Assembly: GCA_000310025.1 (NCBI GenBank)
Contig: FN648687.1
Location: 1 to 64,000 of the forward strand
DNA: 64,000 nucleotides
Reading direction: 5' to 3'
Source: Ectocarpus siliculosus
Taxonomy: Eukaryota; Sar; Phaeophyceae; Ectocarpales; Ectocarpaceae
Position numbers and translations under genes: made by a program. Under the pieces are notes generated by a model. It was not told the origin of the DNA and did no database searches. It worked only from the letters and a program-made list of their open reading frames with translations. The first letter of the stretch is position 1, and the number at the start of each line of letters is the position of its first letter. This document shows, in pieces, positions 41,001 through 64,000 of this stretch.

Positions 41001-44000
41001 GGAAGTGAGGGGGGCGCCTGGGCTCACTCCACCGAAGTCATGGAATGGGGTGACTTTCATGAAACCTGTCAAGAGGATCATTTGTGGAATGGTGTGGTGG
41101 AAACCGCCGTCCGTGAAAGGGAGGAGGGCGCTTGGACTCATTTTATCGAAGTCATAAAAGTGGGGGTGGCTTGCATGGAAGCTGTCAAGGGGAGTATATG
41201 TATTGGAGTGTGGTATGAAATCCGTCCGTGGCAGTGAGGGGAGCGCTTGGGCTCATTCTATCGAAGTCAAGAAAGTGAAGGTGACTTTCATGCAAGCTGT
41301 CAAGAGGATCATTTGTACAATAATGTGGTGTAAAACGCCGTCCGTGGAAATGAGGTGGACACTTGGGCTCATTCTACCGAAGTCATGGAGATGGAGGTGA
41401 CTCCCACGGAAGCAGTCACGAGGATCATTGGTACAGGAGTGAGGTATAAAATCCGTCCGTGGAAGCGAGGTGGGGACCTGGGCTCAGTTTGCCGAAGTCA
41501 AGGAGGTGGAGGTGACTTCCATGGAAGCTGTCACGAGGATCATTTGTACAATAGTGTTGTGTGAAACGCCATTCTTCAAAGTGACGGGGGCGCTTGGGCT
41601 CGTTCTACCAAATTCACAGAAGTGGAGGTGACTTTCATGGAAGCTGTCAAGAGTATCATGTGTACGGGAGCGTGGAGTGGAACGCCATCCGTGAAGGTAT
41701 GGCGTGCGCTTGGGCTCTTTTGACCTAGGTCATGGAACTGGTGGTGACTTCCATGGAAGCTGTCAAGGGGGTCATTTTTACAGCGGTGTGGTGTGAAACG
41801 CCGTCCGTGGAAGTGAGGGGGGCGCCTGGGCTCATTCTACCGAAGTCATGGGAGTGGAGGTGACTTCCATGGAAGCTGCCAAGAGGATCAGTTGTACAGG
41901 AGTGTGGGTTGAAAAGTCCGTGGAAGTTTAGGGGGCGCTTGGGCACATTCTACCAGAGTCATGGGAGTGGAGGTGACTCCCATGGAAGCCGTCAATGGGA
42001 TTATGTGTAAAGAAGTGTGAACTGACACGCCGTCCGTGAAAGTGAGGGGCGCTTGGGCTCATTCTACCGAAGTCGTGGAAGTGGAAGTGCCTTCCATGGA
42101 ACCTGTCAAGGGGATTATACGTAGGGGAGCGTGGTTAAAGACGCCGTCCGTTGAAGTGAGCGAAGGGCTTCGACTCATTTAACCGAAGTGATGGAAGTGG
42201 AGGTGACTTCCATGGAAGCTGTCAAGAGGAATATTTGTGCAATTGTTTGGTGGAAATCCCCGTCCGTAGAAGTGAGGGGGGCGCTTGGGCTAATATCTAC
42301 CGAAGTCATGGAAGTAGAGGTGACTTCCATGGAAGCTGTCAAGAAGATCATGTGTACAATGATGTAGGGTGAAACGCCATCCGTGGAAGTTTAGGGGGCG
42401 CTTGGGCTCATTCCACCGAAGTCATGAAAGTAGAAGTGACTTCCATGGAAGCTGTCAAGAGGATCATTTGTACAGTAGGGTGGTTTGAATCGCCGGCCAT
42501 GGAAGTGAGGCGGGCGCTTGGGCTCACTCCACCGAAGTCTTGAAAGTGGCGGTGAGCTTCATGGAAGCTGTCAAGAGGATCATTTGTACAATAATGTGGT
42601 GTGAAACGCTGTCCTTGGGAGTGACGGGGGCCCTTGGGCTCATTCTACCGAAGTCATGGAAGTGGAGGTGACTTCCACGGAACTAGTCAAGAGGATCACT
42701 TGTACAGTAATGCGGTGTGACGCGCCGTCAGTGGAAGCGAGGGGAGCGCGTGGGCTCACATCACCGAAGTCATGGCAGTGGAGGTGACGTCCATGGAAGC
42801 TGTCAAGAGGATCATTTGTGCAATTGTGTGGTGGAAATCCTCGTCCGTAGAAGTGAGGGGGGCGCTTGGGCTCACTCCACCAAAACCATGGAAGTCAAGG
42901 TGACTTCCATGGAAGCTGTCAAGGGGATTATACGTAAGGGAGCGTGGTTTAAAACGCCGTCGGTTGAAGTGAGCGAAGGGCTTCGACTAATTCTACCGAA
43001 GTCCTGGAAGTGGAGGTGACTTCCATGGAAGCTGTCAAGAGGATCATTTTTTGAATGATGTAGGGTGAAACGCCATCCGTGGAAGTTTTGGGGGCGCTTG
43101 GGCTCATTCCTCCGAAGTCATGAAAGTAGAAGCATGGAAGCTGCCAAGAGGATCATTGGTACAGTAGGGTGGTTTGAATCGCCGGCCATGGAAGTGAGGC
43201 GGGCGCTTGGGCTCACTCCACCGAAGTCTTGAAAGTGGCGGTGAGCTTCTTGGAAGCTGTCTAGAGGATCATTTGTACAATAATGTGGTGTGAAACGCTG
43301 TCCTTGGGAGTGACGGGGGCCCTTGGGCTCATTCTACCGAAGTCATGGAAGTGGAGGTGACTTCCACGGAACTAGTCAAGAGCATCACTTGTACAGTAGT
43401 GTGGTGTGACGCGCCGTCAGTGGAAGCGAGGGGGGCGCTTGGGCTCACTTCACCGAAGTCATGGCAGTGGAGGTGACTTCCATGGAAGCTGTCAAGAGGA
43501 TCATTTGTGCAATTGTGTGGTGGAAATTCCCGTCCGCAGAAGTGAGGGGGGCGCTTGGGCTCACTCCACCAAAGTCATGGAAGTAGAGGTGACTTCCATG
43601 GAAGCTGTCAAGAAAGTCATGTGTACAATGGTGTAGGGTGAAACGCCATCCGTACACGTGGGGGGGGACGCTTGGGCTCACTCCACCGAAGTCATGAAAG
43701 TGGAGGTGTCGTGCATGGAAGCTGTCAAGGGGAATATATGTAAGGGAGCGTGGTATAAAACGCAGTCCGTTGAAGTAAGGGAGGCGCTTCGAATCATTTA
43801 ACCGAAGTCATGGAAGTGGAGGTGACTTCCATGGAAGCTGTCAAGAGGATCGTTTGTACAATGATGTAGGGTGAAACGCCATCCGTGGAAGTTTAGGGGG
43901 CGCTCGGGCTCATTCCACCGAAGTCATGGGAGTGGAAGTGACTTCCATGGAAGCTGTCAAGGGGATTATACGTAGGGGAGCGTGGTATAAAACGCCGTCC

Positions 44001-47000
44001 GTTGAAGTGAGCGAAGGGCTTCGACTCATTTAACCGAAGTCATGGAAGTAGAGGTGACTTCCATGGAGGCTGTCAAGAAGGTCATGTGTACAATGGTGTA
44101 GGGTGAAGCGCCATCTCGTACACGTGGGGGGGGACGCTTGGGCTCACTCCACCGAAGTCATGAAAGTGGAGGTGTCTTGCATGGAAGCTGTCAAGGGGAA
44201 TATATGTAAGGGAGCGTGGTATAAAACGCAGTCCGTTGAAGTAATGGAGGCGCTTCGACTCATTTTACCGGAGTCATGGAAGTGGAGGTGACTTCCATGG
44301 AAGCTGTCAAGAGGATCATTTGTACAACGATGTAGAGTGAAACGCCATCCGTGGAAGTTTAGGGGGCGCTTGGGCTCATTCCACCGAAGTCATGGGAGTG
44401 GAAGTGACTTCCATGGAAGCTGTCAAGGGCATTGTACGTAGGGGAGCGTGGTTTATAAGGCCGTCCGTTGAAGTGAGCGAAAGGCTTCGACTCATTTAAC
44501 CGAAGTCATGGAAGTGGAGGTGACTTCCATGGAAGCTGTCAAGAGGATTATTTGTGCAATTGTTTGGTGGAAATCCCCGTCCGTAGAAGTGAGGGGGGCG
44601 CTTGGGCTCACTCCACCAAAACCATGGAAGTAGAGGTGACTTCCATGGAAGCTGTCAAGGGGGTTATACGTAAGGGAGCGTGGTTTAAAACGCCGTACGT
44701 TGAAGTGAGCGAAGGGCTTCGACTCATTTAACCGAAGTGATGGAAGTGGAGGTGACTTCCATGGAAGCTGTCAAGAGGATCATTTGTGCAATTGTTTGGT
44801 GGAAATCCCCGTCCGTAGAAGTGAGGGGAGCGCTTGGGCTCACTCCACCAAAGTCATGGAAGTAGAGGTGTCTTGCATGGAAGCTGTCAAGAAGGTCATG
44901 TGTACAATGGTGTAGTGTGTAAACGCCATCCGTACACGTGGGGGGGGACGCTTGGGCTCACTCCACCGAAGTCATGAAAGTGGAGGTGTCTTGCATGGAA
45001 GCTGTCAAGGGGAATATATGTAAGGGAGCGTGGTATAAAACGCAGTCCGTTGAAGTAAGGGAGGCGCTTCGACTCATTTTACCGAAGTCATGGAAGTGGA
45101 GGTGACTTCCATGGAAGCTGTCAAGAGGATCATTTGTACAACGATGTAGAGTGAAACGCCATCCGTGGAAGTTTAGGGGGCGCTTGGGCTCATTCCACCG
45201 AAGTCATGGGAGTGGAAGTGACTGCCATGGAAGCTGTCAAGGGCATTGTACGTAGGAGGAGGTGGTGGGAAACCCCATGGGTACAAGGGGGGGGGGGCGC
45301 TTGGGCTCACTCCACCGAAGTCATGAAAGTGGAGTTGTCTTGCATGGAAGCTGTCAAGAAGGTCATGTGTACAATGGTGTAGGGTGAAACGCCATCGGTA
45401 CACGTGGGGGGGGGCGCTTGGGCTCACTCCACCGAAGTCATGAAAGTGGAGTTGTCTTGCATGGAAGCTGTCAAGGTGATTATATGTAAGGGACCGTGGT
45501 ATAAAACGCAGTCCGTTGAAGTAAGGGAGGCGCTTCGACTCATTTTGCCGAAGTCATGGAAGTGGAGGTGACTTGCATGGAAGCTGTCAAGAGGATCGTG
45601 AGTACAATGATGTAGGGTGAAACGCCATCCGTGGAAGTTTAGGGGGCGCTTGGGCTCATTCCACCGAAGTCATGAAAGTAGAGGTAACTTCCATGGAAGC
45701 TGTCAAAAGGATCACTTGTACAGTAGGGTGGTTTCAAACGCCGTCCATGGAAGTGAGGCGGGCGCTTGGGTTCACTCCACCCAAGTCTTGGAAGTGACGG
45801 TGACCTTCATGGAAGCTGTCAAGGGGATTATATGTAAGGGAGCGTGGTATAAAACGCAGTCCGTTGAAGTAAGGAAGGCGCTTCGACTCATATAACCGAA
45901 GTCATGGAAGTGGAGGTGACTTCCATGGAAGCTGTCAAGCGGATCATTTGTACAATGATGTAGGGTGAAACGCCATCCGTGGAAGTTTTGGGGGCGCTTG
46001 GGCTCATTCCACCGAAGTCATGAAAGTAGAAGTGACTTCCATGGAAGCTGTCAAGAGGATCATTTGTACAGTAGGGTGGTTTGAATCGCCGGCCATGGAA
46101 GTGAGGCGGGCGCTTGGGCTCACTCCACCGAAGTCTTGAAAGTGGCGGTGAGCTTCATGGAAGCTGTCAAGAGGATCATTTGTACAATAATGTGGTGTGA
46201 AGCGCTGTCCTTGGGAGTGACGGGGGCCCTTGGGCTCATTCTACCGAAGTCATGGAAGTGGAGGTGACTTCCACGGAACTAGTCAAGAGGATCACTTGTA
46301 CAGTAGTGTGGTGTGACGCGCCGTCAGTGGAAGCGAGGGGGGCGCTTGGGCTCACTTCACCGAAGTTATGGCAGTGGAGGTGACTTCCATGGAAGCCGTC
46401 AAGAGGATCATTTGTGCAATTGTGTGGTGGAAATCCCCGTCCGTAGAAGTGAGGGGGGCGCATGGGCTCACTCCACCAAAACCATGGAAGTCACGGTGAC
46501 TTCCACGGAAGCTGTCAAGGGGGTTATACGTAAGGGAGCGTGGTTTAAAACGCCGTCCGTTGAAGTGAGCGACGGGCTTCGACTCATTTTACCGAAGTCC
46601 TGGAAGTGGAGGTGACTTCCATGGAAGCTGTCAACAGGATAATTTGTGCAATTGTGTTGTGGAAATCCCCGTCCGTAGAAGTGAGGGGGGCGCTTGGGCT
46701 CACTCCACCAAAGTCATGGAAGTAGAGGTGATTTCCATGGAAGCTGTCAAAAGGATCACTTGTACAGTAGGGTGGTTTGAAACGCTGTCCATGGAAGTGA
46801 GGCGGGCGCTTGGGTTCACTCCACGTCATGAAAGTATAGGTAACTTCCATGGAAGCTGTCAAAAGGATCACTTGTACAGTAGGGTGGTTTGAATCGCCGG
46901 CCATGGAAGTGAGACGGGCGCTTGGGCTCACTCCACCGAAGTCTTGAAAGTGGCGGTGAGCTTCTTGGAAGCTGTCAAGATGATCATTTGTACAGGAGTG

Positions 47001-47811
47001 TTGGGTGAAACGCTGTCCTTGGGAGTGACGGGGGCCCTTGGGCTCATTCTACCGAAGTTATGGAAGTGGAGGTGACTTCCACGGAACTAGTCAAGAGGAT
47101 CACTTGTACAGTAGGGTGGTTTGAATCGCCGGCCATGGAAGTGAGACGGGCGCTTGGGCTCACTCCACCGAAGTCTTGAAAGTGGCGGTGAGCTTCTTGG
47201 AAGCTGTCAAGATGATCATTTGTACAGGAGTGTTGGGTGAAACGTTGTCCTTGGGAGTGACGGGGGCCCTTGGGCTCATTCTACCGAAGTTATGGAAGTG
47301 GAGGTGACTTCCACGGAACTAGTCAAGAGGATCACTTGTACAGTAGGGTGGTTTGTAACGCCGTCCATGGAACTGAGGCGGGCGCTTGGGCTCACTCCAC
47401 CGAAGTCTTGGAAGTGACGGTGACCTTCATGGAAGCTGTCAAGGGGATTATTCGTACAGTAGTGTGGGGTGAAACGCTGTCCTTGGGAGTAACGGGGGCC
47501 TTTGGGCTCGTTCTATCGGAGTCATGGAAGTGGAGCTGACCTTCATGGAAGCTGTCAAGAGGATCATTTGTACAGTAATATAGGGTGAAACGCCATCCTC
47601 GAAAGTGAAAGGGGCGCTCGGGCTCATTCGACCGATTTCATGGAAGTGGAGGTGACTTCCATGGAAGCTGTAAAGGGGATCATTTGTACAGTAGTGTGGT
47701 GTGAAACGCCGTCCTTGAAAGTGAGGGGGGCGCTTGGGCTCACTCCACCAAAGTCGTGGAAGTGGAAAATACTTTCGTGGAAGCTGTCAAGGGGATCATG
47801 TGTACAAGAGT
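38005..47811 (+). repeat. 116-bp satellite array, roughly 80 units
   Basis: A unit of 115-117 bp is repeated head to tail. It contains GAAGTCATGGAAGTGGAGG, the palindrome-bearing TTCCATGGAAGCTGTCAAG, then TTGTACA, GTGAAACGCC(A/G)TCCGTG and GGGCGCTTGGGCTCA. Spacing was checked at several places (for example 40,807 to 40,923, 43,809 to 43,925 and 45,903 to 46,019, each 116). Sub-arrays repeat at larger scale: about 39,880-40,870 matches about 40,921-41,900 with an offset of 1,041 bp (nine units). The open frames with MEVEVTSMEAVK-like peptides shift frame every unit and are not genes. Confidence 0.95.
38776..39021. mobile_element. 246-bp MITE inside the 116-bp satellite
   Basis: The left end GACTCATGCAACGGTAGGG and the right end (complement of GAGTCATGCAACGATAGGG) match at 17 of 19 positions. 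CGCC flanks the element on both sides (38,772-38,775 and 39,022-39,025). Removing the element plus one CGCC restores the normal satellite text GAAACGCCATCC. This gives exact borders and a 4-bp target duplication. There is no coding capacity. Confidence 0.9.
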
Positions 47812-50743
47812 GTGGTTGCGGCATTAATACTCTCCCTACTCATGCGATAGTCGCTACAAAAGCAACAACCTTGTATGAAGCGCCGTGGACAACAAAAGCC
47901 CACCATCCGGCCGCCGCACACTCTAGATGTGTGTGGGTCCGGCATTCATATTCCACTATTCATGCGTGAGTCGCCACGCAGGCAACAATCCCCGTGAGTA
48001 GGGCTGTTGCAAAATCAAGCGCACCATCCGCACACCACACACTCTTGATTTATGTGGTTCCGGCATTCATACTCTCTCTACTGATGCCTAAGTCGCCACA
48101 CACGCATCAACCGTTGTAAGTCGCACCGTGAACAAAAAAGCCCACCATCCGGCCGCCACACACTCTAGATGTGTGTGGGTCCGGCATTCATATTCCACTA
48201 TTCATGCGTGAGTCGCCACGCAGGCGACAATCCTCGTGAGTAGCGCTGTAGCAAAATCAAGCGCACCATCCCGGCGCCACACACTCTTGATATATGTGGC
48301 TTCGGCATTCATACTCGCTCTACTGATGCCTAAGTCGCCACACACGCATCAACCGTTGTAAGTAGCACCGTGAACACAAAAAGCCTACCAATCACGGCCG
48401 ACGCACACTACTTATGTGTGTGGTTCCAGCATTCATACCATCTCTACTCATGCGTGAATCCCCACGAAGGCGACAACCCTCGGGAGTTCCGCTGTTCCCA
48501 AAACAAAGCACCACCATCCGGCCGCCACACACTATTTATGTGTGTGGCTTCGGCATGCATACTCTCTTGTTTCCTCTTTTGATCGCCACAAAAGCAACCA
48601 CCTTGTAATGAGCGCAGTGGCCAAAAAAGCCCGCCGCCACGGCCTGCACACACACACCGTTCATGTGTGTGGTTGCGGCATCCATACTCTCTCTACTCAT
48701 GCGTGAATCGCTACAAAAGCAACAACCTTGGTAAGTAACGCCGTGGGCAAAACAAGCTCACCAATCACGGCCGACACACAATGTACATGTGTGTGGTTCC
48801 GGCATTCATACTCTCTCTACTCATGCCTAAGTCGCCACACACACATCAACCGCCGTAAGTAGCACCTTGAACCAAAAAGCCCACCAATCACGGGCGACGC
48901 ACACTAATTATGTGTGTGGTTCCGGCATTCATCCTGTCTCCACTCATGCGTGAATCCCCACGCAGGCGACAATCCTCGTGAGTAGGGGCTCTTGCAAAAT
49001 CAATCGCACCATGCGGGCGCCACACATTTTTGATGTGTGTCGTTTCGGCATTCCTAACATCTGTACTCATGCGTTAGTGGTTACAAATCAACAACGTTCG
49101 TGAGTAACGCCGTGGACAACAAAAGCCCACCAGCCACCGCCGCCACACAATCTAAATGTGTGTGGGTCCGGCATTCATATTCCATTATTCATGTGTGAGT
49201 CGCCACGAAGACGACAACCCTCGGGAGTTCCGCTGTTCCCAAAACAAAGCACCACCATCCGGCCGCCACACACTATTTATGTGTGTAGCTTCGGCATGCA
49301 TACCCTCTTGTTTCTTCTTTTGATCGCCACAAAAGCAACCACCTTGTAATGAGCCCAGTGGCCAAAAGAAGCCCGCCGCCACGGCCGGCACAAACTGTTC
49401 ATGTGCTTGGTTGCGGCATCCATACTCTCTCTACTCATGCGTGAGTCGCCACAAAAGCAACAACCTTGGTAAGCAACGAGCTCACCAATCACGGCCGACA
49501 CACACTACTTTTGTGTGTGGTTCCGGCATTCATACTCTCTCTACTCATGCCTATGTCGCCACACGCACATCAACCGCCGTAAGTAGCACCGTAAACAAAA
49601 AAAGCTCACCAATCGCGGGCGACGCACACTACTTATGTGTGGGGTTCCGGCATTCATACCATCTCTACTCTTGTGTGAATCCCCACGCAGGCGACAATCC
49701 TCGTGAGTAGCGCTCTTGCGAAATAAATCGCACCATGCGGGCGCCACACACTTTTGATGTGTGTGGTTTCGGCATTCATATTCTCTTTACTCATGCGTTA
49801 GTGGTTACAAAACAACAACCTCCGTGAGTAACGCCGTGGACAACAAAAGCCCACCAGCCACTGCCGCTACACACTCTAGATGTGTGTGGGTCCGGCATTC
49901 ATATTCCACTATTCATGCGTGAGTCGCCACGAAGGCGACAACCCTCGGGAGTTCCGCTGTTCCCAAAACAAAGCACCACCATCCGGCCGCCACACACTAT
50001 TTATGTGTGTGGCTTCGGCATGCATACTCTCTTGTTTCTTCTTTTGATCGCCACAAAAGCAACCACCTTGTAATGAGCGCCGTGGCCAAAAGAAGCCCGC
50101 CGCCACGGCCGGCACACATTGTTCATGTGTGTGGTTGCGGCATCCATACTCTCTCTACTCATGCGTGAGTCGCCACAAAAGCAACAACCTTGGTAAGCAA
50201 CGCCGTGGACAAAACAAGCTCACCAATCACGGCCGACACACACTTTACATGTGTGTGGTTCCGGCATTCATACTTTCTCTACTCATGCCTAAGTCGCCAC
50301 ACGCACATCAACAGCCGTAAGTAGCACCGTAAACAATACAAGCTCACCAATCACGGCCGACACACACTGTACATGTGTGTGGTTCCGGCATTCATCCTAT
50401 CTCTACTCATGCGTGACTCCCCACGAAGGCGACAATGCTCGTGAGTAGCGCTGTTGCAAAATCATGCGTACCATCCGGCGGCCACACACTCTTGATATAT
50501 GTGGTTTCGGCATTCATACTCGCTCTACTGATGCCTAAGTCGCCACACACGCATCAACCGTTGTAAGTAGTAGCGTGAACAAAATAAGCCCACCAATCAC
50601 GGCCGACGCACACTACTTATGTGTGTGGTTCCGGCATTCATACCATCTCTACTCATGCGTGAATCCCCACGAAGGCGACAACCCTCGGGAGTTCCGCTGT
50701 TCCCAAAACAAAGCACCACCATCCGGGCGCCACACACTCTTGA
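47812..50743 (+). repeat. 123-bp satellite array, about 24 units
   Basis: The unit is 123-124 bp (GGCAT anchors at 48,677, 48,801, 48,924 and 49,047). It comprises GTCGCCAC(A/G), CAACC..GTAAGTA, CACCAATCACGGCCGACACA, the dyad ACACACTGTACATGTGTGT, GGTTCCGGCATTCATACTC and CTCTACTCATGC. Several subfamilies alternate. Small frames here (for example MCVVPAFIPSLLMRESPRRR) are repeat shadows. The array is interrupted at 50,744 by a Helitron. Confidence 0.95.
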
Positions 50744-51637
50744 TCATGTTATATATTCAAAGGGCTCCGGACTTCGGGCGCAGAGGCGCCCTCGTCCTCA
50801 GTAGTAGGCTTTAAAAAGGAAGGTGTGAAGGCTATGCACAGCATACCAAGGGCATGAAGCCGCAGAGTGACCGAATGAACGGTGTGAAGATGTTCGCGTT
50901 GTATTCGAGAAATGTGCCGTTCCCGGTGTAACACGATGAAGCCAAAAGAGTCGCGTGTACGTGATTTTTTGTCTAGCTTCGCCCGGTGCGGTCGCCTCCC
51001 TATTCTTGCGCTGGTAAGAACGTAGTAACACTCAGGCAACGTTTTCTAAGTGGCTTTGCTGTGGCCAATATCCTCCCCAAAGGGGTCAAAGAAAGAACGA
51101 ACACTGCAACTGTTCGACGGTATTGCCGGTAGATGTTACTGGTGTAACGCCGCCTAACTCTCATATTCACACTTCTTCAGTGTCGCGCCTTTCTCTAATA
51201 TCCCCCTCTAATGTTCTGGAGCTATGATCCTAACTTTTTCGGTGTCATCCCGCCCGAATGGTCATATTCTAACTTCTCCGGTGTAATGTCGCACCCTTCT
51301 CTAATGTCCCCCTCTAATGACGCCGATATGCGGTATCCCTCAAAATATGATGGGAGCCGAACACCTACAACATTCAGACAAAGTAAGAACAAACACCGCA
51401 CGCAGGCGTTGCCGCTAGTTGACGGTGAAAGAGTTGACGCCTCCCGTCTCGGGTCATCGTTGCCCCTTACGGCCCTGGTGGTTATTGCCGATTACCACTG
51501 CGGAAGGTATGGTTTTGTTTGCAGCCTTGTACGCAGGTCTCGAGCTGCTTAATGTTGAAGCGTGACGGTGATGGCCTTGATGATGTCGGCGATGGTGCAG
51601 GCGGTGGGGTGCCTGCGCTGGCGGCAGAATGCAATTA

Positions 51638-51798
51638 TTAGGTCGATGGATGTAAGAGCGGGTACGTGTCATAACCGTATAATGTAAATTTAGAGCAGAA
51701 GAAAGAGGTTGTTGGGGAAGAGGTATTCATAAAGTGGATGTTTATCTCGGCATCAAAAGTTCGTTTAGCTGCGATGATTTCTTCGACACGGAATAGTT
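51638..51798 (-). pseudogene. OTU-domain C-terminal remnant in the first Helitron
   Basis: The minus-strand frame reads VEEIIAAKRTFDAEINIHFM and on to LLHPST before tandem stops. This is the second half of an OTU-type cysteine protease domain (EI-AA-x-F-x-x-I-IH pattern). It aligns with the end of the helicase-OTU frame at 62,400. Here the codon after AAK is CGA (Arg), whereas the other copy has TGA. The catalytic Asp-Gly-x-Cys half is missing, because unrelated sequence starts just upstream. Confidence 0.7.
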
Positions 51799-52084
51799 CT
51801 CATAATGTTGTTGGAGGTCGAATATGCCGTGGTAAGCACGTTCATGCAAGGTGAGCATTGAAGGCGCTGGCGGTTCAGTCCATGTCATTTTTTGAATACA
51901 GCCTGCGCCTAATGCAGTAAATCCGAAAAGCCCGTTGTATCGTGATATTACACCGTTTCATGGAATAATTGGTGGAAGTTAGTCAGAGGTTAATGAATTT
52001 AGTAGTTTCAAACAGCGCCATAAGATGGTGGGGGATAGATTGGAGAGGATGGATACACGACTTGCCTTTGTTACAACAATTTAA

Positions 52085-52366
52085 TCACTTTTCTTCTTTC
52101 CAAAGTATAGCATTGCAGTGAGAACATGTAATATTTTGTGGATCATCCGAATCCGTGTGTTCTAGCTCAAAAGGTGCCGAGGGGAAGTCGAATGATTGCG
52201 AGTCAATGTCTTGCACTCCAAGGCAGATTTGGTTATTAGCATCACCGCGATGGCTGTCTAGACTGGGTGCCGGTAACCTTGGTGCACGATTCCTCATTTG
52301 GCTAAAATGTTGACGTATCATATCGAGTTCAGGGTCTGAGTCGTGTGGTGTGTTATTGTTTGAATT
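52085..52366 (-). pseudogene. Helitron N-terminal zinc-motif fragment
   Basis: A minus-strand frame contains NNNTPHDSDPELDMIRQHFS, then an Asp/Pro-rich stretch, and ends ITCSHCNAILWKEEK followed by a stop. The CxxC-A-hydrophobic-x-x-E ending is the characteristic zinc-binding start of Helitron Rep/helicase proteins. The Rep (HUH) domain that should follow is absent. This fragment and the OTU piece thus bracket a large internal loss. Confidence 0.65.
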
Positions 52367-52769
52367 GCGACGATTTCAGCTTGCGCGTTATCCGGACAGG
52401 TGTGTTTGTGGTGTTCGAGTTTCAGGCGTAGTTCGGGGTTGCGTGAGCGATCTTCGTTGCGTATTTCGACGAGCTGAAGGTGTTCGTCGATTTGGAGTTG
52501 TTGGTACGTTCCTCGAGGGAGTGTTACTCGCGCTGGGGGTGTGGATTTTCACGTGCAGTATGTGATCGTGTTTGGCGATTTTGAGGTGCGGCTGCTGAAC
52601 GAGTTACCCAATGAATTGACGTCAGCCGACATTGATGATTGTCAGACATGGGGTGACATCTTTACTCTATTGATAGTTGGCGAAAGCCAGTTGCACGTGG
52701 CAACAATCTACCTTGAATTTCTTGAGACGAAATGGAAACACGCGTCTTACTTTAGAGGTCGGCGTGGGT

Positions 52770-52975
52770 AGTTCCCAGGTCGCGGTGCTCGTCGGTCTTG
52801 TTGAGGATCTCGTTGATAGTCTGGTCCCACAGGCGGCGGGCGCACTGGTAGTGCAGCGGCGGGGAGTCTCAATCCTTGATGATCAGGTCGTCCTCGACGA
52901 TCTCGCCCGTGCACCCGTCGGCCAGGTCTTCCTCGTTAGTCGCTGCGTCGGGACACCCTTGCAGTAGATATCGGA
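52770..52975 (-). other. GC-rich coding-like fragment, possible captured exon
   Basis: The minus-strand frame reads TNEEDLADGCTGEIVEDDLI, IKD, one TGA, then PPLHYQCARRLWDQTINEIL and NKTDEHRDLG. Codon third positions are almost all G or C, in contrast to the AT-richer Helitron around it. The composition is that of a well-expressed host gene. I do not recognise the family, and capture of a host exon by the Helitron is an inference. Confidence 0.4.
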
Positions 52976-53549
52976 TGGGTGACAGGGAAAATTATTAGGA
53001 AAAAATATCGCATGGTTTTACATTATGAAAAAATGATATTTATATTTATGACGTCGACGGTTGAACTCGGTGCACTGACAGGGGAAAATATAAGGAACAT
53101 ATGTCAAATGGTCTCCCCATACCAAAAAATGCTATTTTTTTTATGACGTCGACCGGTGAACACGGTGTACTTTTGTGACATATGGGTAACTGATTTACAG
53201 CAACAGTCGGATGCATCCGCGCACCCATATCTAGGTAACTACGCACACACACGACTCGTCACTACACAATCGCGTTCCGATGTAAACGGGTGCACACATG
53301 ATTTACCCCGATAAGGCTGGCGGGGGCGACGGTGACGTGCATGAACTTCTTGCCGCCGAAGACTTGGCACCAGCGCAAAGACGCCACACCGCGTGGATAA
53401 TATTCCACTCTGACAATAACAGCAAGCACAAAAGGGCATTGTTGTGGAGAGATTTAGCGGTTGCGGTTGCGATGCAGTTTCATGCCAGGCCTTCATGCAG
53501 CACCTGAACAACATTCAGGCACACATCAGGCGGAATCTACTTGATACAA

Positions 53550-54011
53550 TCAAAGAGAGAACTTTCTTTTACCTTTGTAGCCGCGGCTGTTGACCTGGTC
53601 GGTTGGGATCCCGAGCGAAGGAGTACCTCCCATCGGGGCGAGGCAGAGCTGGGACGGCTTGTGGTACGTTGTCGACGGGGTGGGGATGGTACAGGATACG
53701 CTGCAACTGTCCGCGTCGCGGTTGTTGGTACGGTCGCAACGGGCAAACTTGCCTTTACCGTCGCGCTTGTTTATGAGCTTGAGGTGACCGCCGTCGCAGT
53801 CGGGCCCGGGGCAACGCCAGTTGGGGTCGCCCTGTTTTACAGGGCGGCGGTACACTCCACTACGACTCTCTGACTGGGTGGACTTACGCTTTGCTGGGGA
53901 GCTACGGGAGAGGGCGTTCATGTTGTGTTGCAGCTGAAGGTCGACGCGGGAATGAGAGGAGGAGAGGATGTCGAAAGTGAAAGTGACCGGGATGTATGTG
54001 CACTCTTTCAT
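53550..54011 (-). CDS. small zinc-ribbon protein, Helitron cargo
   Basis: This is an open frame of 153 codons. Translation may begin at the second Met (MNALSRSSPAKRKS), which removes an AT-rich leader. The middle part carries cysteines in a zinc-ribbon-like layout: WRCPGPDCDGG, KFARCDR and DADSCSVSC (CxxxxC, then C about 20 residues on, then C and CxxxC). Basic stretches lie on both sides, and the C-terminus is Pro/Ser-rich and ends in Lys/Arg. The order suggests nucleic-acid binding. No catalytic domain is visible. Whether it is a Helitron gene or a captured one is open. Confidence 0.45.
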   Translation of the reverse strand: MKECTYIPVTFTFDILSSSHSRVDLQLQHNMNALSRSSPAKRKSTQSESRSGVYRRPVKQGDPNWRCPGPDCDGGHLKLINKRDGKGKFARCDRTNNRDADSCSVSCTIPTPSTTYHKPSQLCLAPMGGTPSLGIPTDQVNSRGYKGKRKFSL

Positions 54012-54839
54012 TCATTCTGCATTGACTAACTTCTGACTAACTTCCAGCAGATATTCTAACTTCTGGCACACCTCCAGCAGTTATCCCATGAAATGTGCAC
54101 TCTTTCATTCACTCTGCATAGTTATCTTGTGACTAAACTTCCACCAATTATTCTAACTTCCGACTACTGTATTGTAACTTCCACCAATTATTCCATGAAA
54201 CGGTGTGATATCACGAAAAGTTGATCTCTGTATATACATACGATGTAGCGCAGTCTACAGCAGCACCTTCAATACAACAACAGTAGTACAACAACATGTT
54301 CACAGTATTGATGATGCCGTGAGATTTGCGTGCATGTTCAAGCTCAAAACAGAGCAAGTAAAGTCTAAAGTTGTGGCATACCACAACAACAACGATCAAT
54401 CTACATTTGTCAAATCTTCCTTGCTACATACAGCTGCAGAATATTAGGAACAATAAAAACACACATGGAAAGATGCAGAATATGTGCAACTTGGAGGGTG
54501 TGTGTGGCATATACGTAGTACGTACGTAAACTCCGTGCGGTGACAGTACACGATGCACATACATACTCCAGTTCGGGTTGCTTCCGCTAGAGAAGAAGGC
54601 GACAGGATGCATGCATGCACTACTACTGTACCTACCTACAACACATATCATTTTAGTACGGACAGTCTGTCGATATCTATCTACAGATGAGACCACGCGG
54701 CAAAAAAAAGTCTGTGCTAGGTACTGCTTGTATGCTTGTACTTCAAGTATGTATGTGTCATGATTTATGAGTTGACGTTCTCCGAAATCTCATCCAATGA
54801 GCTGCGTGATTCTTTAGAGATCACAGTCCCTTGATGTCC

Positions 54840-56000
54840 CTTGCGTAGACGCGCCCGGATGCACGATATTTAGCCGTACTTTACGGTGCTGTAACTTGGC
54901 TCGCCCTTGGAGTCTAGAGCTCGCCACAGGGAGGGGCGCTGTGGTCTCGAGAGTGGCACGCCCACGTCGGCGAAGACGGCCGAAAAATTTGTATGAACCC
55001 CATTTAAAAACAATTAAAACCGATTTACCGCACCGCAACGTCTAGCTCAATGACTGAAATAGTGGTTGCGTGCATTCACCGTGCTGTAACTCTACTCGCC
55101 TTTGGAGTTTCGAGCTCGCGAGAGGGGCGATGCGATCCAGAGACTGGCCCGCTGCAGCGGGCAACAACCGGCGAAAAATAAAGTATCAAGGCGACCGCGA
55201 ACTGATGCACCACAAAAAACGTCTTGCTTTTAGAGTGCAACAATGGTTGAACTCTTGCGTCTCAGGCCTCCGACATAATTGTAGTTAAGTCTATACTTAC
55301 AGGATGGTCGTCGTGACGTGATATATTTCTTGTTATTAGTATGGAAAGAAATAAAAAAAAGATGGCTCGATTTTTGAATTTCTACAGCAGTATGGACCAG
55401 ACGCCGACTTTACATGGAAGTCGTACGAGTGTCGACTTAGTTGTGCTGTCACAGCATCTTCCACGCACTTCTGCCAGTGCTGGTTTGTTGATTGGAGTCT
55501 TGTAGGTCGAGATACAGCAGTGGGTTGGACTCCCGGGTTGTGGAGGCAAAAGTGAACCAGAGCAAAAAATTTCATGCATTTCTAGCTCGATTACTGCTGC
55601 TGTGTTTTTGCTACAGCAGTATGGACTACTAGACGCCGAACGACGTCCGCGTGCTACAAGTACCGCAACGACCTAACGGGATGGGATACTTCCTGCCACG
55701 GCGAAGCATAGTACAGTGCGATGCTAACATCCGTTCGTGTGTCGCGCGGCTGCCACATGTGTCGACGACAGGTTCACGTAGAGCTCTCGCCATGTTGTCG
55801 TTACCGCGCAGGAGGACCCCTCGGAGATGTTCACATGGCGCTACAACGACAGCAGTAGTACTGTACATAGATGTCGTAGGAGAGTGGAGTTGTGCTGTCA
55901 CAGCATCTCCCACGCATTCTCCTACCGGTGCTTGTGTCGATTGGAGTCTTGCAGGCCGAAATACAAGAGTGGGACTCCCGGGTTGTGGAAGCAAACCTGC
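54840..56000. repeat. two pairs of diverged direct repeats inside the first Helitron
   Basis: Pair one: about 54,875-54,990 and 55,075-55,185 share GTGCTGTAACT, CTCGCC(C/T)TTGGAGT, GAGCTCGC and GGCGAA. Pair two: about 55,376-55,560 and 55,612-56,000 share CTACAGCAGTATGGAC, GTTGTGCTGTCACAGCATCT, GATTGGAGTCTTG and GACTCCCGGGTTGTGGA. The second copy of pair two carries an insertion of about 200 bp. Part of pair two is related to 11,553-11,670. The 227-codon plus-strand frame at 55,651-56,334 runs through these repeats and is not convincing as a gene. Confidence 0.65.
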
Positions 56001-56187
56001 CTGCAGCAACAGAAAAGGCGGTGTTCTATTTACTATAATAGAGTATCCCGCTCAACTTTTGTTTTTTTCGCGGCATGTGGTCGCACATTTCTTTGCCACT
56101 GCTGAAAAAGACCGCTGGATCTTTACGCAGTCCATCTTTAGCATTTATCGTTTTACACTGAACGACGCAGGACGGGTCGACCTTCAT

Positions 56188-56209
56188 CGTTGTTGTTGTT
56201 GTTGTTGTT
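56188..56209 (+). repeat. (GTT)7 microsatellite
   Basis: This is a short uninterrupted trinucleotide run inside the first Helitron. Confidence 0.9.
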
Positions 56210-56999
56210 TTCTCCACATTAAAAACCGTTCCGACGTCCTCCTCGATACTTGTGGACTACCTGTTGGAAATTGGGGGAATCCCTTCATTCTGAGAGAGAG
56301 AACCATAGGTCGCCATCCGGCCTTTTCTTTTTAGTATGCACTTTTCTTCTTGTGAAGTTTTGACGTTGCGCTTGCCATCTTCGCTACGTAAGTGTTTGTG
56401 TCTTCAAACCTTCTCAGCCGGCCTTCAAACTTCTTGTTGATAAGTCTCCGTGTGGTAACTTCTCCGCGCATGAGTCATATGCAGCTATGACCTGCGCTTT
56501 GACTTTCACGATGGGTGTTTTACCTCCCCGTCTTGCGTTGGTGAGTACCTGCGATATACAGAAGGATCGCTCCACGACGCAAACAAACGTCGACGTCTTC
56601 GTTTTTTTTTTGTTCCCTTCGCACTCCATCCTTGCGGGGGTTTTCACCCCGAGTTCGAACGTGGGGTGCAATTTCCTCTCTTCGTACCTTCCTCGTCGGC
56701 CTTCTCCGTCGTTGTGTACATAATGTATACATACCTCGATTTTTCGGCTTTTCGATTCCGATAGACAAGACTACGGACTGACATGTTCCTTTCACCCCCG
56801 ACGGGACCGCGCGCTCGTCGAGAGTGCCGAAATTCTTCATCACTTCCTTGCCTCTCCCAACACCGTCCCTTCTTCCCGCCCTTACAAATCCTCTCCCCTT
56901 CTTCTTCTTCTTTCCGTCCTCCCGGACACTCACCACCATCCGTCCTGGACGTTGGCCCACAGCCCCATTGGGGGGCGGGGGGCCAATCCTTAACCCTAG

Positions 57000-57270
57000 T
57001 ATATGTGGTTGCGGCATCCATACTCTCTCTACTCATGCGTTAGTCGCTACAAAAGCAACAACCTTGGTAAGCAACGCCGTGGACAAAACCAGCTCACCAA
57101 TCACGGCCGACACACACGGTACATGTGTGTGGTTCCGGCATTCATACTTTCTCTACTCATGCGTGAATCTCCACGCAGGCGACAATCCTCGTGACTAGCG
57201 CTGTTGCTAAATCAATCGCACCATTCGGGCGCCACACACTTTTGATGTGTGTGGTTCCGGCATTCATACT
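57000..57270 (+). repeat. 123-bp satellite, about two units between Helitron and LINE
   Basis: The satellite resumes in register after the Helitron with TATATGTGGTTGCGGCATCC and runs to GGCATTCATACT at 57,270, where LINE sequence starts. Confidence 0.9.
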
Positions 57271-60200
57271 ACGAACGAACAACCACCGCCGCGGAATTGG
57301 TGACCGACTTCACCAATGCTCTCCTCGAAGCAGCACGGACGACCCTAGGGGAGGAACCGCGGAGACGCCGCACGCAGGGGTGGTGTGAGACCCCAGAGAC
57401 GAGAGCAGTGCTGGAGGAGGCCGTTACCACACGGCGGGAAGCGCGCCGGGCGATGAGGGGCAACTGGAACTCAGCAACGTGGAGAACTCTCAAAGCAGCG
57501 CGTAAGGGAGTGGCTACAGCAGTCGAAACGGGCATTTATGCCCACCTGGACGGGTATGTGACTGAACTCGAAGTAACCTACAAAGATCGCGACATGAGAG
57601 GACTGTACCAACACCTCAAGAGATCAGTGGGCCTCAGCGGGAGACAAGCGGGGGGACAGCAGTTCGTCGCGGATGAGAACGGCGTGTTGCTCCGGAACAG
57701 GGACGACATCCTCCAACGGTGGGCGAGATTCTTCAGCACCCTACTCAACACCAAGTCCCACACCCTGAACCCAGACATCATCGAACGAGTGACGCAGCGG
57801 CCAGCGACACGTGACAGTCAACGGTTGGGAGAGGTGCCAGATCTCGAGGAGGTGGCACGGGCAGCGAAAGGCCTCAAGAACTGGAAGGCACCCGGCCATG
57901 ACTCCCTCCCTGCCGAATTGCTCAAGATCGATGACGACGAACCCGTTGTCCTGAGACACCTCCATACCATCCTCGTCAAGGTGTGGAACGGAGGAGATAT
58001 CCCCCAAGAGTGGAAAGACTCAACCATCAAGGTGCTGTACAAGAAGGGTGACCGGTCCGACTGTAACAACTACAGGGGGATTTCGCTACTATCTCACGTA
58101 GGCAAGGTTCCCATCAAGATCATCACCAACCGTCTAAGCGCCTTCTGCGAAGCCAACAACATCCTCCCGGAGGAACAGTGCGGATTTCGACCCGGGCGAT
58201 CCACCGTCGACATGCTGTTTGTCGTGCGTCGCCTCCAGGAGCTGGGGCGGAGAAAGAAAATACCGCTCTACATGTGCTTCGTCGACTTGAAGAAGGCGTA
58301 TGATTCGGTGGACCGGGAGATGCTATGGAAGGTGCTGGCCAGGGCCGGGATTCCCGCGAAGCTAATCAAAGTCATCCGCCAATTCCACGATGGAATGCGG
58401 CCCGGGTGCGCATGGACGACGGAGAACTATCGGACTGGTTCTTCGTCACACAGGGTGTGCGACAAGGATGTGTGCTATCCCCACTGCTGTTCAACATCTT
58501 CTTCGCCGAGGTCCTCGAGGTCGTCGTTATCCGATTCAGCGAGGATGATGTTGTTCTGCGGAATCTGGTGTGCTTGGAGGAGGGGAAGACGGAAGCGGGG
58601 GGGGGGGAGGAGACGCCCCTTGACCGAGTACGGAGGGCAGTATGGGGGATGCTGTATGCCGATGATGCCGGCGTCGTATCGAGGTCTGCAGAAGGACTGG
58701 CGAGAATGATGACCATCATCGTTGAGGTGTTCGGAGAGTTCGGGCTAACGGTGTCGGAGAAGAAGACGGAGACGCTCCTGATGCGCGCGAAGGACAAGCC
58801 GACTGCAACATCACAGTCTCCCCCGCCTCCTCCTCCACCACTGACTATCGAAGCCGCGGGACAGAAATACGCCCAGACGACCGAGTTCCGGTACCTCGGT
58901 GGCCTCGTCAACGAACATGGCGACCTCACCCGGGAGATCAGCTACAGGAGCAGAGGAGCGTGGGGGTGCCTCAGGCGATATGGCCAGGAGCTCTTCGACA
59001 GACCGAAAGCGGCATTCCGACTCAAGATCCGCCTCCTCCAGGCGGAGGCGATGGAAGCACTGCTGTACGGCTGCATGACATGGTCACCACTCAGCGGCCA
59101 CTATCAGGCGCTGCGGTCGACACACCACTGACTGCTCCTTCGAGTTATCGGGTACAAGCGCAAGAAAGACACCTACCGGCAGCTCTCGTACGCCCAGACG
59201 CTGAAGAGGGTCGAATGCCAGAGCGTTGAAGCCACGATCCGACAACGACGCCTACTGTTCGCGGGAGCACTGGCAAGGCAGCCGGACGGGCGACTCCCGA
59301 AACGACTGATGCTCGGCGAGCTGGCGGGGGGGGACAAGCCACGTAGGGGGGGACAGGAACAGAACTGGCCGAAGTGTGTCCTCGACGACCTGAAGGCCTT
59401 CGGGGCCGACCACGGGTCTACTAAAACCGACCCAAGTTGTCTCGGAATTCCCGTACCGAAAGACACGGCACCGAAGTCAAGGTGGACGGAAGCCGCGAAG
59501 GTGGAGGGGGGAGTACCCTGGCATGCGGCGGTGGTGCAGGGAGCTGAGAGGTTCATGACCTCCTGGCACGAGAAGGAAGAAGAGGCCAGCCAACAACGAG
59601 CGCTCAAACGAAACCACAAGCCAACAACCAATGGGGCGGGAGGGGGGCAGGAGACGGACGAGACGGCGAGGGAAAAAAGCAAACGAGAATAGACGGACCG
59701 AGTGGCACGACACGTGCCGGATTGAATTTCTTTTGGCCAATTCCCCCCCCCCAATGCTGCACCATTGCACCAACCCCCCAGTAGTAGTGATTTCGTACCA
59801 TTACAATGTATCGCTGGTTGGTGGCCATGTTTGCGTGTTTGCTTGTTCGTTAGTGGTCTCTCCACCGTGTGCCTTATTCTGCCTCATACTTCCTGATATT
59901 TTCGGCCTGGTCCCTCTTTGTCCTCGCCCTTTTTCATTTTATTTTAATTTATTTTCTCTTCTCCTTACGGTTTCCATTTTTTTTTTTTCTCCTTTCTTTT
60001 CTCTTTGTCCTTTTTTGTTCTCTCTTTTTCTCTCTTTTTCTGTGCCAGATGGACTTGTCTCTGCTTGCGTTGTGAAGTACCAAGATTGAACCAAGGGAGT
60101 GTACCTCTTTCTCTCCGGCCCATGATAGATAGTGACTGCTAATCTCAGTTGATACCCCGCATAGCGCGAAGAGGGAGCGGAGGATCCCAGAATATCTGTC

Positions 60201-60456
60201 GTTGATTTCAATTGACTTGCGGACCCCTCGGTGCCAGTTTATTTGAGTGTACCATTTTAGGGTAAGTTAACCTGTGACCACGGGAATCGACCGCGTCGAG
60301 TGTTGGATCAATACGGACATACGAAGGTACTGGGTAGAGAGNNNNNNNNNNNNNNNNNNNNNNNNNNNNNNNNNNNNNNNNNNNNNNNNNNNNNNNNNNN
60401 NNNNNNNNNNNNNNNNNNNNNNNNNNNNNNNNNNNNNNNNNAACAACAACAACAAC
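57271..60456 (+). mobile_element. 5'-truncated LINE inserted in the 123-bp satellite
   Basis: The endonuclease is missing and the element starts in the endonuclease-RT linker. RT blocks follow in order: GLKNWKAPGHDSLPAELLK (about 57,870), WKDSTIKVLYKKGDRSDCNN, FVDLKKAYDSVDREMLW (about 58,280), GVRQGCVLSPLLF (about 58,460) and the catalytic YADD in MLYADDAGVVSRS (about 58,650). A post-RT part follows (RYLGGLVNEHGDLTREISYR; RRLLFAGALARQPDGRLPKR) to about 59,690. There are two visible lesions: a one-base frame change near 58,395-58,410 in a GGCCCGGG context, and an in-frame TGA at 59,129-59,131. The 3' region is T-rich, contains the 100-N gap and ends in (AAC)5 directly against the satellite. 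Despite these lesions it is far better preserved than the LINE at 3.9 kb. Confidence 0.88.
60342..60441. other. assembly gap (100 N)
   Basis: This is a run of exactly 100 N, probably a gap of unknown size, between the LINE 3' region and its (AAC)n tail. The length and continuity of the LINE end are therefore uncertain. Confidence 0.99.
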
Positions 60457-61316
60457 TATCTCTACTCATGGGTGAATCCCCACGAAGGCGACAATCCTCG
60501 TGAGTAGCGCTGTTGCAAAATCAAGCGCACCATCCGGGCGCCACACACTCTTGATATATGTGGTTGCGGCATCCATACTCTCTCTACTCATGCGTTAGTC
60601 GCTACAAAAGCAACAACCTTGGTAAGCAACGCCGTGGACAAAACAAGCCCACCAATCACGGCCGACACACACTGTACATGTGTGTGGTTCCGGCATTCAT
60701 ACCAGCTCTACTCATGCGTGAATACCCACGAAGGCGACAATCCTCGTGAGCCGCTGTTGCAAAATCAATCGCACCATTCGGGCGCCACACACTTTTCATG
60801 TGTGTGGCTTCGGCATTCATACTCTCTCTACTCATGCGTTAGTGGTTACAAAACAACAACCTTCGTGAGTAACGCCGTGGACAACAAAAGCCCACCAGCG
60901 ACTGCCGCCACACACTCTAGATGTGCGTGGGTCCCGCATTCATATTCCACTATTCATGCGTGGATCGCCACGAAGGCGACAACCATCGGTAGTTCCGCTG
61001 TTCCCAAAACAAATCACCACCATCCGGCCGCCACACACTATTTATGTGGGTGGCTTCGGCATCCATACTCTCTTGTTTCTTCTTTTGATCGCCACAAAAG
61101 GAACCACCTTGTAATGAGCGCAGTGGGCAAAGGAAGCCCGCCGCCACGGCCGGCACAAACTGTTCATGTGTGTGGTTGCGGCATCCATACTCTTTCTACT
61201 CATGCGTGAGTCGCTACAAAAGCAACACCCTTGGTAAGCAACGCGGTGGACAAAACATGCGCACCAATCACGGCCGACACACACTTTTGATGTGTGTGGT
61301 TCCAGCATTCATACTA
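60457..61316 (+). repeat. 123-bp satellite, about seven units, with Helitron empty site
   Basis: The array resumes after the LINE tail with TATCTCTACTCATGGG. The unit around 60,521-60,680 has the same text as the combined left and right flanks of the first Helitron, with the A/T insertion point at 60,554/60,555. The array ends at 61,316 (CATTCATACTA), where the second Helitron begins. Confidence 0.93.
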
Positions 61317-64000
61317 TCATGTTATATATACAAGGGCTCCGGAGTTCGGGGGCAGAGGCGCCCTCGTCCTCAGCAGTAGGCTTAAAAGGGAAGGTGTGAA
61401 GGCTGTGCACAGCATACCAAGGGCATGAAGCAGGGTGACCGAATGAACGGTGTGAAGATGTTCGCGTTGTATTCGAAAAATATATGTGCCGTTCCCGGTG
61501 GAAGATGAAGCCAAAAGAGTCGCGTGTACGTGATTTTTGGTCTAGCGTCGCCCGGTGCGGACGAAAAGGAGATGTAAGGGTACGATCACCTCCCTACTCT
61601 TGCGCCGGTAAGAACGTAGTAACACTCCCAGGCAACGTTCTCTAAGTGGCTTTGCTGTGGCTAATATCCTCCCCAAAGGGGCCAAAGAAAGAACGAACAC
61701 TGCAACTGTTCGACGGTATTGCCGGTAGGTGATGGTACTGGTGTGTTGCCGCCTAGCTCTCATATTCACACTTCTTCAGTGTCGCGCCTCTCTCTAATGT
61801 CCCCCTCTAATGTCCCCCTCTAAAGTTCTGGAACAATTATTCTAACTTATTCAGTGTCGTTCCGTCCGAATGTACTGCAGTGTGGATCCGCTCTAATGTG
61901 GCGCCCTTCTCTAATGCCCCCCTCTAATGACGCCGATATGCGGTATCCCTCACAATATGAAAGGAGTCGAAGACCTACAACATTCAGACAAACGAAGAAC
62001 GAACACCGCACGTACAGCAGTGTGGAGCAAACGCCGTCCGCCTATTTCTGCAGGCAACCATTGTTCGACTGCGTTGCCGTTTGTTGACGGTGAAATAGTT
62101 GACACCTCCCGTCTCGGGTCACCGTTGCCCCTCGTGCCCTGGAAGGCATGGTTTCGTTTGCAGCACTGTCCGCAGGTCTCCAGCTTCACAATGTTAAAGC
62201 ACCACGGTGATGTCGGTGATGGTGCAGGCGGTAGGCGGGCGGCAGAATGCAATTATTGGGGAGATGGATGTAAGAGCGTGTACGTGTCATAATGCCTAGA
62301 TGATACCGTATAACGTAAATGTAAAGCAGAAGAAAGAGGTAGTTGGGGAGGAGGTAATGTGGAGGCATCAAAGTGGATGTTTATCTGAGCGTCAAAAATT
62401 CACTTAGCTGCGATGATTTCTGGCTGGCCCATGTAAGTATGCGTCATTGACATTTTGGCGAGGTAGTCGTCATAAGAGTTATAGGTGAACGGTTGCAGTC
62501 CTGAAGCATATAGGGGATCTAATCCTATGTCGTTGTAAATGTGGAAGTCGATGTCATTGCGGTTGGCTGACATGAAAGAGACGATATTTTGTCGAAGCTG
62601 AAAGTGCAGTTCGGGGTCACCGAGAAAGCGCCTTGCCAGTGCTCGGAAGCCGCAGGCACCGTCTCCTACTTCGTGTTGAACTGACCCTCTAGGCTGAGGT
62701 GGAGAAGGTGGAGGAGGTGGCGGAGGAGGTGGAGGTGGGGGAGGAGGTGGGTGAGTTCCTGAAGGTATCGTGTCATTTGTGGTGTTAGGAGATGAGTTGG
62801 GATCATCTGTGGCGGCCTGTATGAAAGGTGGGTAGACAATGTTATCAGTGTACGGTACGTCGTGTACAACATGAGATGGTGGTAGGAGGCACATGATCGA
62901 ACTTCTGTTCCGAGCTCTGCTGAGTGCAACGTAAAGTTGACCGTGTGCGAAAGGGGATGATCGTAAGTCGAGCCCTATACGGGAAAGTGTTTGACCTTGG
63001 CCTTTGTTGATCGTGATGGAGTAAGCTGTGCGCAGAGGAAATTGAACGCGCATGAAGTTGATGCCTGATTTGCCAACTTTTGCAGGGAAATTAATGCGAG
63101 GAATGAGGACGATGGGGCGAGGCCTTTCGTCAGTGAGGAGTTCGACTTGAATAACACGAGAGTTAGATGAAACTGCGTGTAAGATGCATTTTTGACCGTT
63201 CACAAGGCCCTGTGAAAAGTTCAGGTTTCGGACTATCATAGCAAGGCCGTTAGATTTCAGCTCGAGTTCATGTGGTGGCACACCTTGGACGTTGAGTTGA
63301 TTTAGGTGTTCAGGGGCATCAAACGCGGTTGATGTGTTGTCATCAGATGTGAGGGAGTCTGAGCTATAAAAGGTGGTTGTTGTGCCGGATCGTTCATCAG
63401 ATATGGTGGTATTAGAGCGATCAATTGCGTAGTTTGTTGTAGCGAGGATTGCTCGATCGTTCCAGTTTCGGGCGTCCTCGTTCATGTCAGGATACACAAA
63501 GTTCACTAGTTCATCAAAATCGGTTGTGTGTTGAAGTTGAAAGCGCTTCGGGTCATGCTTATCTGCAGTATTATTACGGGGTATGAGATTGTTACCATCT
63601 GGGAGCTTTATAGTTTGGTGTTTGTTTTCCCCAACGTTTCGCACAAATGCAGCATACTCAGGGTCTTCTTTGTCCCGTTGTGATTTTGTGAGACGCAGAC
63701 TGGTTGTGTGTTGCCAAAGGGTGCTGGAGATGAACGCTGCGTCAACGGTATCCGTCGGAGATCCTGACTTGACAAAGGGTCCAATTTGCCTCCAATCGCC
63801 TGAAAATAACACCGTTTTACCACCAAAGTGATGAGAATTCCTCATTAGATCTTTAAGGGTTCTGTCTAAAGCCTCGACGCAGTACCTATGAGTCATCGGC
63901 AGCTCGTCCCATATAATTAAGTTTGCGTTTCACAACAACTCCGCGCGTTGACTGTTAGCGTATATGTTGCAAACGCATGAGGATGAAAGTTTCTCTTCCA
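61317..64000. mobile_element. second Helitron, partial (continues beyond window)
   Basis: It begins TCATGTTATATATAC directly after an A of the satellite, like the element at 50,744. It matches that element by eye through about 1.05 kb with small indels, up to the end of the OTU coding region (GCTGCGATGATTTCT near 62,410). Beyond that point it keeps the helicase that the first copy has lost. The hairpin near the terminus has one mismatch here. The far end lies outside the window. Confidence 0.85.
62400..63929 (-). CDS. Helitron PIF1-type helicase fused to OTU protease
   Basis: The frame is open from 63,929 to 62,400, with the first ATG at 63,896. It opens with NANLIIWDELPM (Walker B; DE). Numbered from that ATG, it continues with LFSGDWRQIGPFV (about residue 27), ITINKGQGQTLSRIG (about 295) and QLYVALSRARN (about 320), the late motifs of SF1B PIF1-like helicases that unwind DNA during Helitron transposition. 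A Pro run (about 383-398) leads to VGDGACGFRALARRFLGD (410 on), with the Asp-Gly-x-Cys of OTU cysteine proteases, and then LRQNIVSFM and PEIIAAK. An in-frame TGA (63,930-63,932) precedes NANLII; upstream, CNIYANSQRAELL continues the helicase. A second TGA at 62,400 cuts the OTU domain, whose tail (IFDAQINIHFD) follows in frame. Rep and ATP-binding parts lie beyond the window. Confidence 0.85.
   Translation of the reverse strand, partial: NANLIIWDELPMTHRYCVEALDRTLKDLMRNSHHFGGKTVLFSGDWRQIGPFVKSGSPTDTVDAAFISSTLWQHTTSLRLTKSQRDKEDPEYAAFVRNVGENKHQTIKLPDGNNLIPRNNTADKHDPKRFQLQHTTDFDELVNFVYPDMNEDARNWNDRAILATTNYAIDRSNTTISDERSGTTTTFYSSDSLTSDDNTSTAFDAPEHLNQLNVQGVPPHELELKSNGLAMIVRNLNFSQGLVNGQKCILHAVSSNSRVIQVELLTDERPRPIVLIPRINFPAKVGKSGINFMRVQFPLRTAYSITINKGQGQTLSRIGLDLRSSPFAHGQLYVALSRARNRSSIMCLLPPSHVVHDVPYTDNIVYPPFIQAATDDPNSSPNTTNDTIPSGTHPPPPPPPPPPPPPPPSPPQPRGSVQHEVGDGACGFRALARRFLGDPELHFQLRQNIVSFMSANRNDIDFHIYNDIGLDPLYASGLQPFTYNSYDDYLAKMSMTHTYMGQPEIIAAK

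Follow-up and report, generated by a model that had tools for sequence, protein, structure and literature searches.

Canonical Helitrons (Helitron1) begin with 5'-TC, end with 3'-CTRR and form a hairpin some 10-12 nt before the 3' end, as described in sections of PMC5148889; their insertions fall between A and T, no target site is duplicated, and they encode a PIF1-type helicase. RepHel genes running in reverse are described for members of the Helitron2/Helentron group, namely Helitron-2_CRe, Helitron-1_DR, Helentron-Da-40A and FoHeli4/5 (passages of PMC5148889, PMC3627910 and PMC4067079), and OTU domains are known from Helentrons (passages of PMC4067079 and PMC9741609). According to an excerpt of the latter, OTU domains of transposons have yet to be tested for catalytic activity, and its authors raise the possibility that a related protease domain keeps the proteins of transposition from being degraded. 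The RepHel of proto-Helentron-Pi from Phytophthora infestans groups with those of Helentrons (PMC4067079, in part) and Helitrons are known in brown algae (PMC12477816, in part). Here we describe a stretch of 64,000 nucleotides from the brown alga Ectocarpus siliculosus (contig FN648687.1, positions 1 to 64,000, hereafter the window) in which a satellite array is interrupted by a 6,256 bp element, copy 1, and by a relative, copy 2, that continues past the window end. The best explanation, to which we give a probability of roughly 90%, is that copy 1 is a non-autonomous Helitron and copy 2 a decayed copy of the same family, which has a reversed transposase gene of the helicase-OTU type.

Borders of copy 1 and a second insertion in the same array

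Border, flank and phase alignments place copy 1 at 50,744-56,999 on the plus strand, with TCATGTTATATAT at its 5' end and TTAACCCTAG at its 3' end, so that it begins with TC, ends with CTAG and sits between A and T without target duplication, all of which agrees with the borders proposed in an earlier sequence-only reading. The left flank runs ...CACTCTTGA up to 50,743 and the right flank starts with TATATGTGG at 57,000. Joined, they give CACACACTCTTGATATATGTGG, and this text is found unbroken at 60,542, within the interval 60,541-60,570 to which the same reading had assigned an empty site, and also at 48,278 and 50,483. When the joined flanks are aligned to the 60.5 kb region, as that reading had proposed, identity covers 60,528-60,644 (exact over 27 bp on the left side and 90 bp on the right side of a junction at 60,554/60,555) and the alignment then extends past this stretch in both directions. 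With 100 bp taken from each side, 60,457-60,654 scores highest (170) among all places in the three stretches of array that were searched, the next scoring 137.

Copy 1 interrupts the 123-bp satellite without any shift of its phase, not a single base being missing or extra, and the satellite period implies that two breakpoints chosen at random would agree in phase in about one case out of 123. Of the 25 satellite linkers caught by our pattern, 23 have a length of 22 bp, equal to that of the joined linker of copy 1, and all but one of these 23 have A|T at the position of the break. A T is common to the start of copy 1 and to its right flank, so that the cut may be written A|TC...CTAG|T or placed one base rightward.

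The 3' end carries a subterminal hairpin of 35 nt on the plus strand (56,952-56,986), consisting by DNA folding of a 7-bp outer stem, TTGGCCC/GGGCCAA, and an inner stem, and separated from the end of the element by the 13 nt TCCTTAACCCTAG. Folded as single-stranded DNA the segment 56,940-56,999 reaches -18.1 kcal/mol (z -3.04), with one of 200 shuffles as good.

Copy 2 starts at 61,317 on the plus strand and continues past the window end at 64,000; it was recognised by nucleotide alignment and by its 5' terminus, which it shares with copy 1. Positions 61,317-62,421 align with the initial 1,039 bp of copy 1 at 76% identity, and the 13 bases TCATGTTATATAT (50,744-50,756 in copy 1) occur only at 50,744 and 61,317 when the whole window is searched on either strand with up to two mismatches. 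The satellite text that precedes copy 2 is CATACTA| and that preceding copy 1 is CTCTTGA|, and the two copies therefore occupy different positions of the satellite repeat unit. Homologous satellite units at the insertion place of copy 2 read CATACCATCTC (48,434, 49,655 and 50,639), so that A|T was probably the target of copy 2 too, whose right side falls past the window end; CATACTATCTC itself has no occurrence in the window. For the 5' border this independent start carries more weight than the empty site.

It might be supposed that the array was rearranged or segmentally duplicated and that the satellite boundaries match by chance, with no transposition at all. Satellites are generally known to recombine, many paralogous linkers lie in phase (the 25 caught by pattern), and the flanks of copy 1, each taken singly, have their best relatives in different units, that of the right flank being the unit from 60,555 onwards. 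We nevertheless regard such a history as exceedingly improbable given the exact phase, without a base lost or gained, and given that copy 2 starts at the same base of the element in a different satellite position, a pattern that duplication of a junction does not give.

A reversed helicase-OTU gene in copy 2

Copy 2 carries on the minus strand (62,259-63,998) the end of a PIF1 helicase followed by a proline-rich linker and an OTU-like domain, as identified by Pfam and PDB matches. The reading frame contains stops at 63,930-63,932 and 62,400-62,402, and the gene is therefore broken. Between them the open frame 62,403-63,929 (minus strand) has as its best PDB match the bat Helitron transposase Helraiser (7lcc, E 4.2e-43), which ranks ahead of 25 further PDB sequences, mostly PIF1-type helicases. 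With the stops masked, Pfam finds in 62,259-63,998 PIF1 (6e-31), Pif1_2B (2.6e-10) and, behind the proline-rich linker, OTU (1.7e-5), the last at 25.8 bits and thus above the curated cut-off of 23.3. The first half of the OTU part matches OTUD3 (4bou, E 1.9e-5) and the second half aligns without significance. In the three antisense frames of 61,317-62,402 Pfam recognised neither an endonuclease nor any other family at E up to 0.1. A GAGGTGGAG-type repeat at 62,696-62,750 is part of the coding stretch for the proline-rich linker.

The gene lies antisense to the TC-to-CTAG direction and points to the TC end. Translation and nucleotide alignment reveal a decayed OTU-like tail at the same place and on the same minus strand in copy 1 (51,641-51,781), which is too short to give a Pfam match by itself. 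Since copy 1 keeps this tail in the same place and direction, the reversed arrangement is a property of the family rather than a peculiarity of copy 2. The tail also bears on a different origin of the gene, in which it would come from a nested element and copy 2 would be a composite of one Helitron inserted oppositely into another. For Fusarium Helitrons, self-insertion has been put forward as one way in which reversed genes may have arisen (passages of PMC5148889) and the window holds only the last part of the helicase-OTU gene; set against this, the tail in copy 1, within a 5' kilobase that is 76% identical between the copies, indicates that the arrangement was already present in the family that was copied. 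A composite origin of this kind is in our view unlikely, and an ancient nesting would be compatible with the best explanation.

The direction of the gene also raises the question as to whether the element should itself be read in that direction, from CTAGGG... to ...CATGA, as a Helitron2/Helentron-like element with a 5' hairpin in which TC and CTAG are coincidental. The elements with reversed genes and 5' hairpins described in the passages cited above belong to the Helitron2/Helentron group, OTU domains are likewise known from Helentrons, and copy 1 has a weaker hairpin close to its TC end (z -2.21, equalled by 5 of 200 shuffles). In copy 2, however, the corresponding region takes another and less stable fold (z -1.28, equalled by 21 of 200 shuffles), there is no exact inverted match of at least 6 bp between the first and last 100 bases of copy 1, no endonuclease domain was seen with Pfam, and TC, CTAG, A|T and a hairpin 13 nt from CTAG jointly fit the canonical orientation. 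We consider the gene-direction reading quite improbable.

The best reading of copy 1 itself is as a non-autonomous relative that would have been moved in trans. No Rep, helicase or transposase family was found by Pfam in six frames of copy 1 with stops read through, nor in 12 of the 16 open reading frames of at least 80 aa that overlap it, the only matches being weak and below cut-off (HTH_91, E 0.064, among the open reading frames; IQ_SCN5A_C, E 0.037, in the six frames). A repeat search also identified within copy 1 a 2.3 kb segment (51,940-54,216) bounded by 42-bp inverted repeats that are 98% complementary, with further repeats adjoining them. It is possibly a DNA transposon with terminal inverted repeats nested in copy 1; no target duplication was seen by eye in its flanks.

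On the Helitron explanation, copy 1 would have entered a satellite unit at an A|T dinucleotide through rolling-circle transposition, and copy 2 would have inserted independently at another position in the same array. The family transposase, a RepHel whose Rep part would lie outside the window, has its gene antisense to the TC-to-CTAG direction and ends in an OTU protease-like domain, any role of which is putative. Such an enzyme may nick at the 5' TC end, copy as far as the 3' hairpin and CTAG and insert the product between A and T.

A number of observations weigh against this explanation. The left flank of copy 1 alone is closest to 48,439-48,538 (94/100), with 60,457-60,554 scoring 74/100. 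Even when up to four mismatches are allowed, the last 17 bases of copy 1 are not met again in the window, and the 3' border is defined by copy 1 only. With the stops left unmasked the OTU match falls to 17.2 bits, below the cut-off of 23.3. A Rep (HUH) domain was not seen in the window, which ends inside the helicase of copy 2, and no other family members were recovered from viral, bacterial and archaeal collections.

As the closest unit of the left flank lies elsewhere, the empty site is a paralogous satellite unit that is not established as the pre-insertion allele; it locates the ends of copy 1 and gives no date for the insertion. The sequence-only reading had called the Helitron proven by this site. 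The site is real and is the best place for the joined flanks, but the wording goes a little far, given that many paralogous units of this kind exist and that the left flank has its best match in another of them. The identification as a Helitron stands on TC and CTAG, the A|T target, the lack of a target duplication, the 3' hairpin and a second copy with a Helitron-type helicase. That second copy, its helicase-OTU gene and the reversed direction had been overlooked, and they are more informative than the empty site.

The surrounding array and the search for relatives

Some 4 kb of satellite sequence is broken up by the two Helitron copies and by an element resembling a long interspersed nuclear element (LINE). 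Tandem Repeats Finder places the 123-bp unit (dimer 246 bp) left of copy 1 at 47,810-50,743. By alignment the satellite resumes right of copy 1 at 57,000-57,271, as far as the LINE-like insert (57,268 being the limit used in the flank comparison), and the array with the paralogous empty site, found with Tandem Repeats Finder and flank alignment, extends over 60,456-61,316 to the left of copy 2. The LINE-like retrotransposon (57,272-60,341) breaks the same 123-bp array as the Helitron copies, encodes a reverse transcriptase over two overlapping frames (RVT_1, E 2e-16 and 5e-15) and has as its left flank CATACTA, as does copy 2. Runs of N are present in the window at 17,645-17,898 and 60,342-60,441, with none in the insert 50,744-56,999; the second, between the LINE-like element and the array, is the gap nearest to the empty site, and (AAC)n is located between it and the satellite resuming near 60,455. 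Another satellite with a unit of about 116 bp covers nearly 9 kb (39,022-47,816) and directly adjoins the 123-bp array. Elsewhere in the window an open reading frame of 368 aa on the minus strand (12,564-13,670) has no Pfam match, and its end presumably resembles a tyrosine recombinase, judged by eye.

Relatives were sought in two collections, viral_contigs and genome_contigs, which comprise viruses, bacteria and archaea, and misses there therefore say little on a eukaryotic family. For the copy 2 helicase no relative was found in either: each collection gave five pattern matches, of which tblastn confirmed none. A 33-bp stretch common to both copies has no match in either, and a 5'-end pattern has none in viral_contigs. 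Phage records gave 12 helicase matches, all below 60% identity. Each among the matches listed covers 11-27% of the query, and of those listed (10 of the 12) seven fall under features named helicase or TraA relaxase and three are without annotation, which points to general helicase similarity.

Comparison with described Helitrons and Helentrons

In its ends, target, hairpin and helicase the family fits the definition of a Helitron. As in canonical Helitrons, 5'-TC is present in both copies and 3'-CTRR (here CTAG) in copy 1, copy 1 lies in an A|T target without duplication, its 3' hairpin stands 13 nt from the end, close to the canonical spacing, and copy 2 encodes a PIF1-type helicase in a gene broken by two in-frame stops. 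It differs from them in that the helicase gene is antisense to the TC-to-CTAG direction and has an OTU domain fused behind the helicase. The helicase of bat Helraiser (7lcc) aligns over query residues 2-345, the match ending before the OTU part of copy 2. Taken by itself the insertion of copy 1 is an ordinary Helitron insertion.

We tentatively suggest, at somewhat less than even odds, that the family represents a Helitron lineage in which Helitron1-type ends are combined with a reversed transposase gene fused to an OTU deubiquitinase-like domain and with no endonuclease, that is a mosaic of Helitron and Helentron features. If so, the ends of rolling-circle transposons and their transposase genes can be re-paired, and the direction of the gene is free relative to the end that is nicked first. 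A reversed, OTU-bearing gene would thereby be added to the group with canonical ends, which bears on the origins of Helitrons, Helitron2 and Helentrons from one another. The locus further provides a family whose 5' end is well bounded by two independent insertions within one array and a non-autonomous copy linked to a coding relative. No case of a reversed RepHel with Helitron1-type TC/CTRR ends was found in the portions of open-access literature searched, and a reversed RepHel gene is not described in the portions of PMC4289320, PMC4522978 and PMC6431247 covered.

With the reversed-RepHel elements of the Helitron2/Helentron group, as portrayed in the passages cited, the family shares a transposase gene opposite to the direction of its relatives and an OTU domain. 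That group, however, is described with asymmetric terminal inverted repeats and other target sites, and Helitron2 is further marked by a hairpin at each end, whereas the terminal 100 bases of copy 1 contain no such repeat, the hairpin near its TC end takes a different fold in copy 2, and in copy 2 the OTU domain stands behind the helicase in the place of the Helentron apurinic/apyrimidinic endonuclease. Membership in Helitron2 or Helentrons was rejected on two grounds, no asymmetric terminal inverted repeats and no endonuclease seen. A satellite-carrying Helentron as in oyster (an excerpt of PMC7492417) was also rejected, the satellite here lying outside the ends of the element.

The closest described element in its mixture of features, compared by description, is proto-Helentron-Pi. 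The passages on it in PMC4067079 give it a CTAG 3' end, A|T insertion without duplication and no endonuclease, all as here, and its boundary was likewise confirmed by way of a paralogous empty site. It differs from the Ectocarpus family in starting with TT and not TC, in its length of about 14 kb and in carrying SET-domain and other genes.

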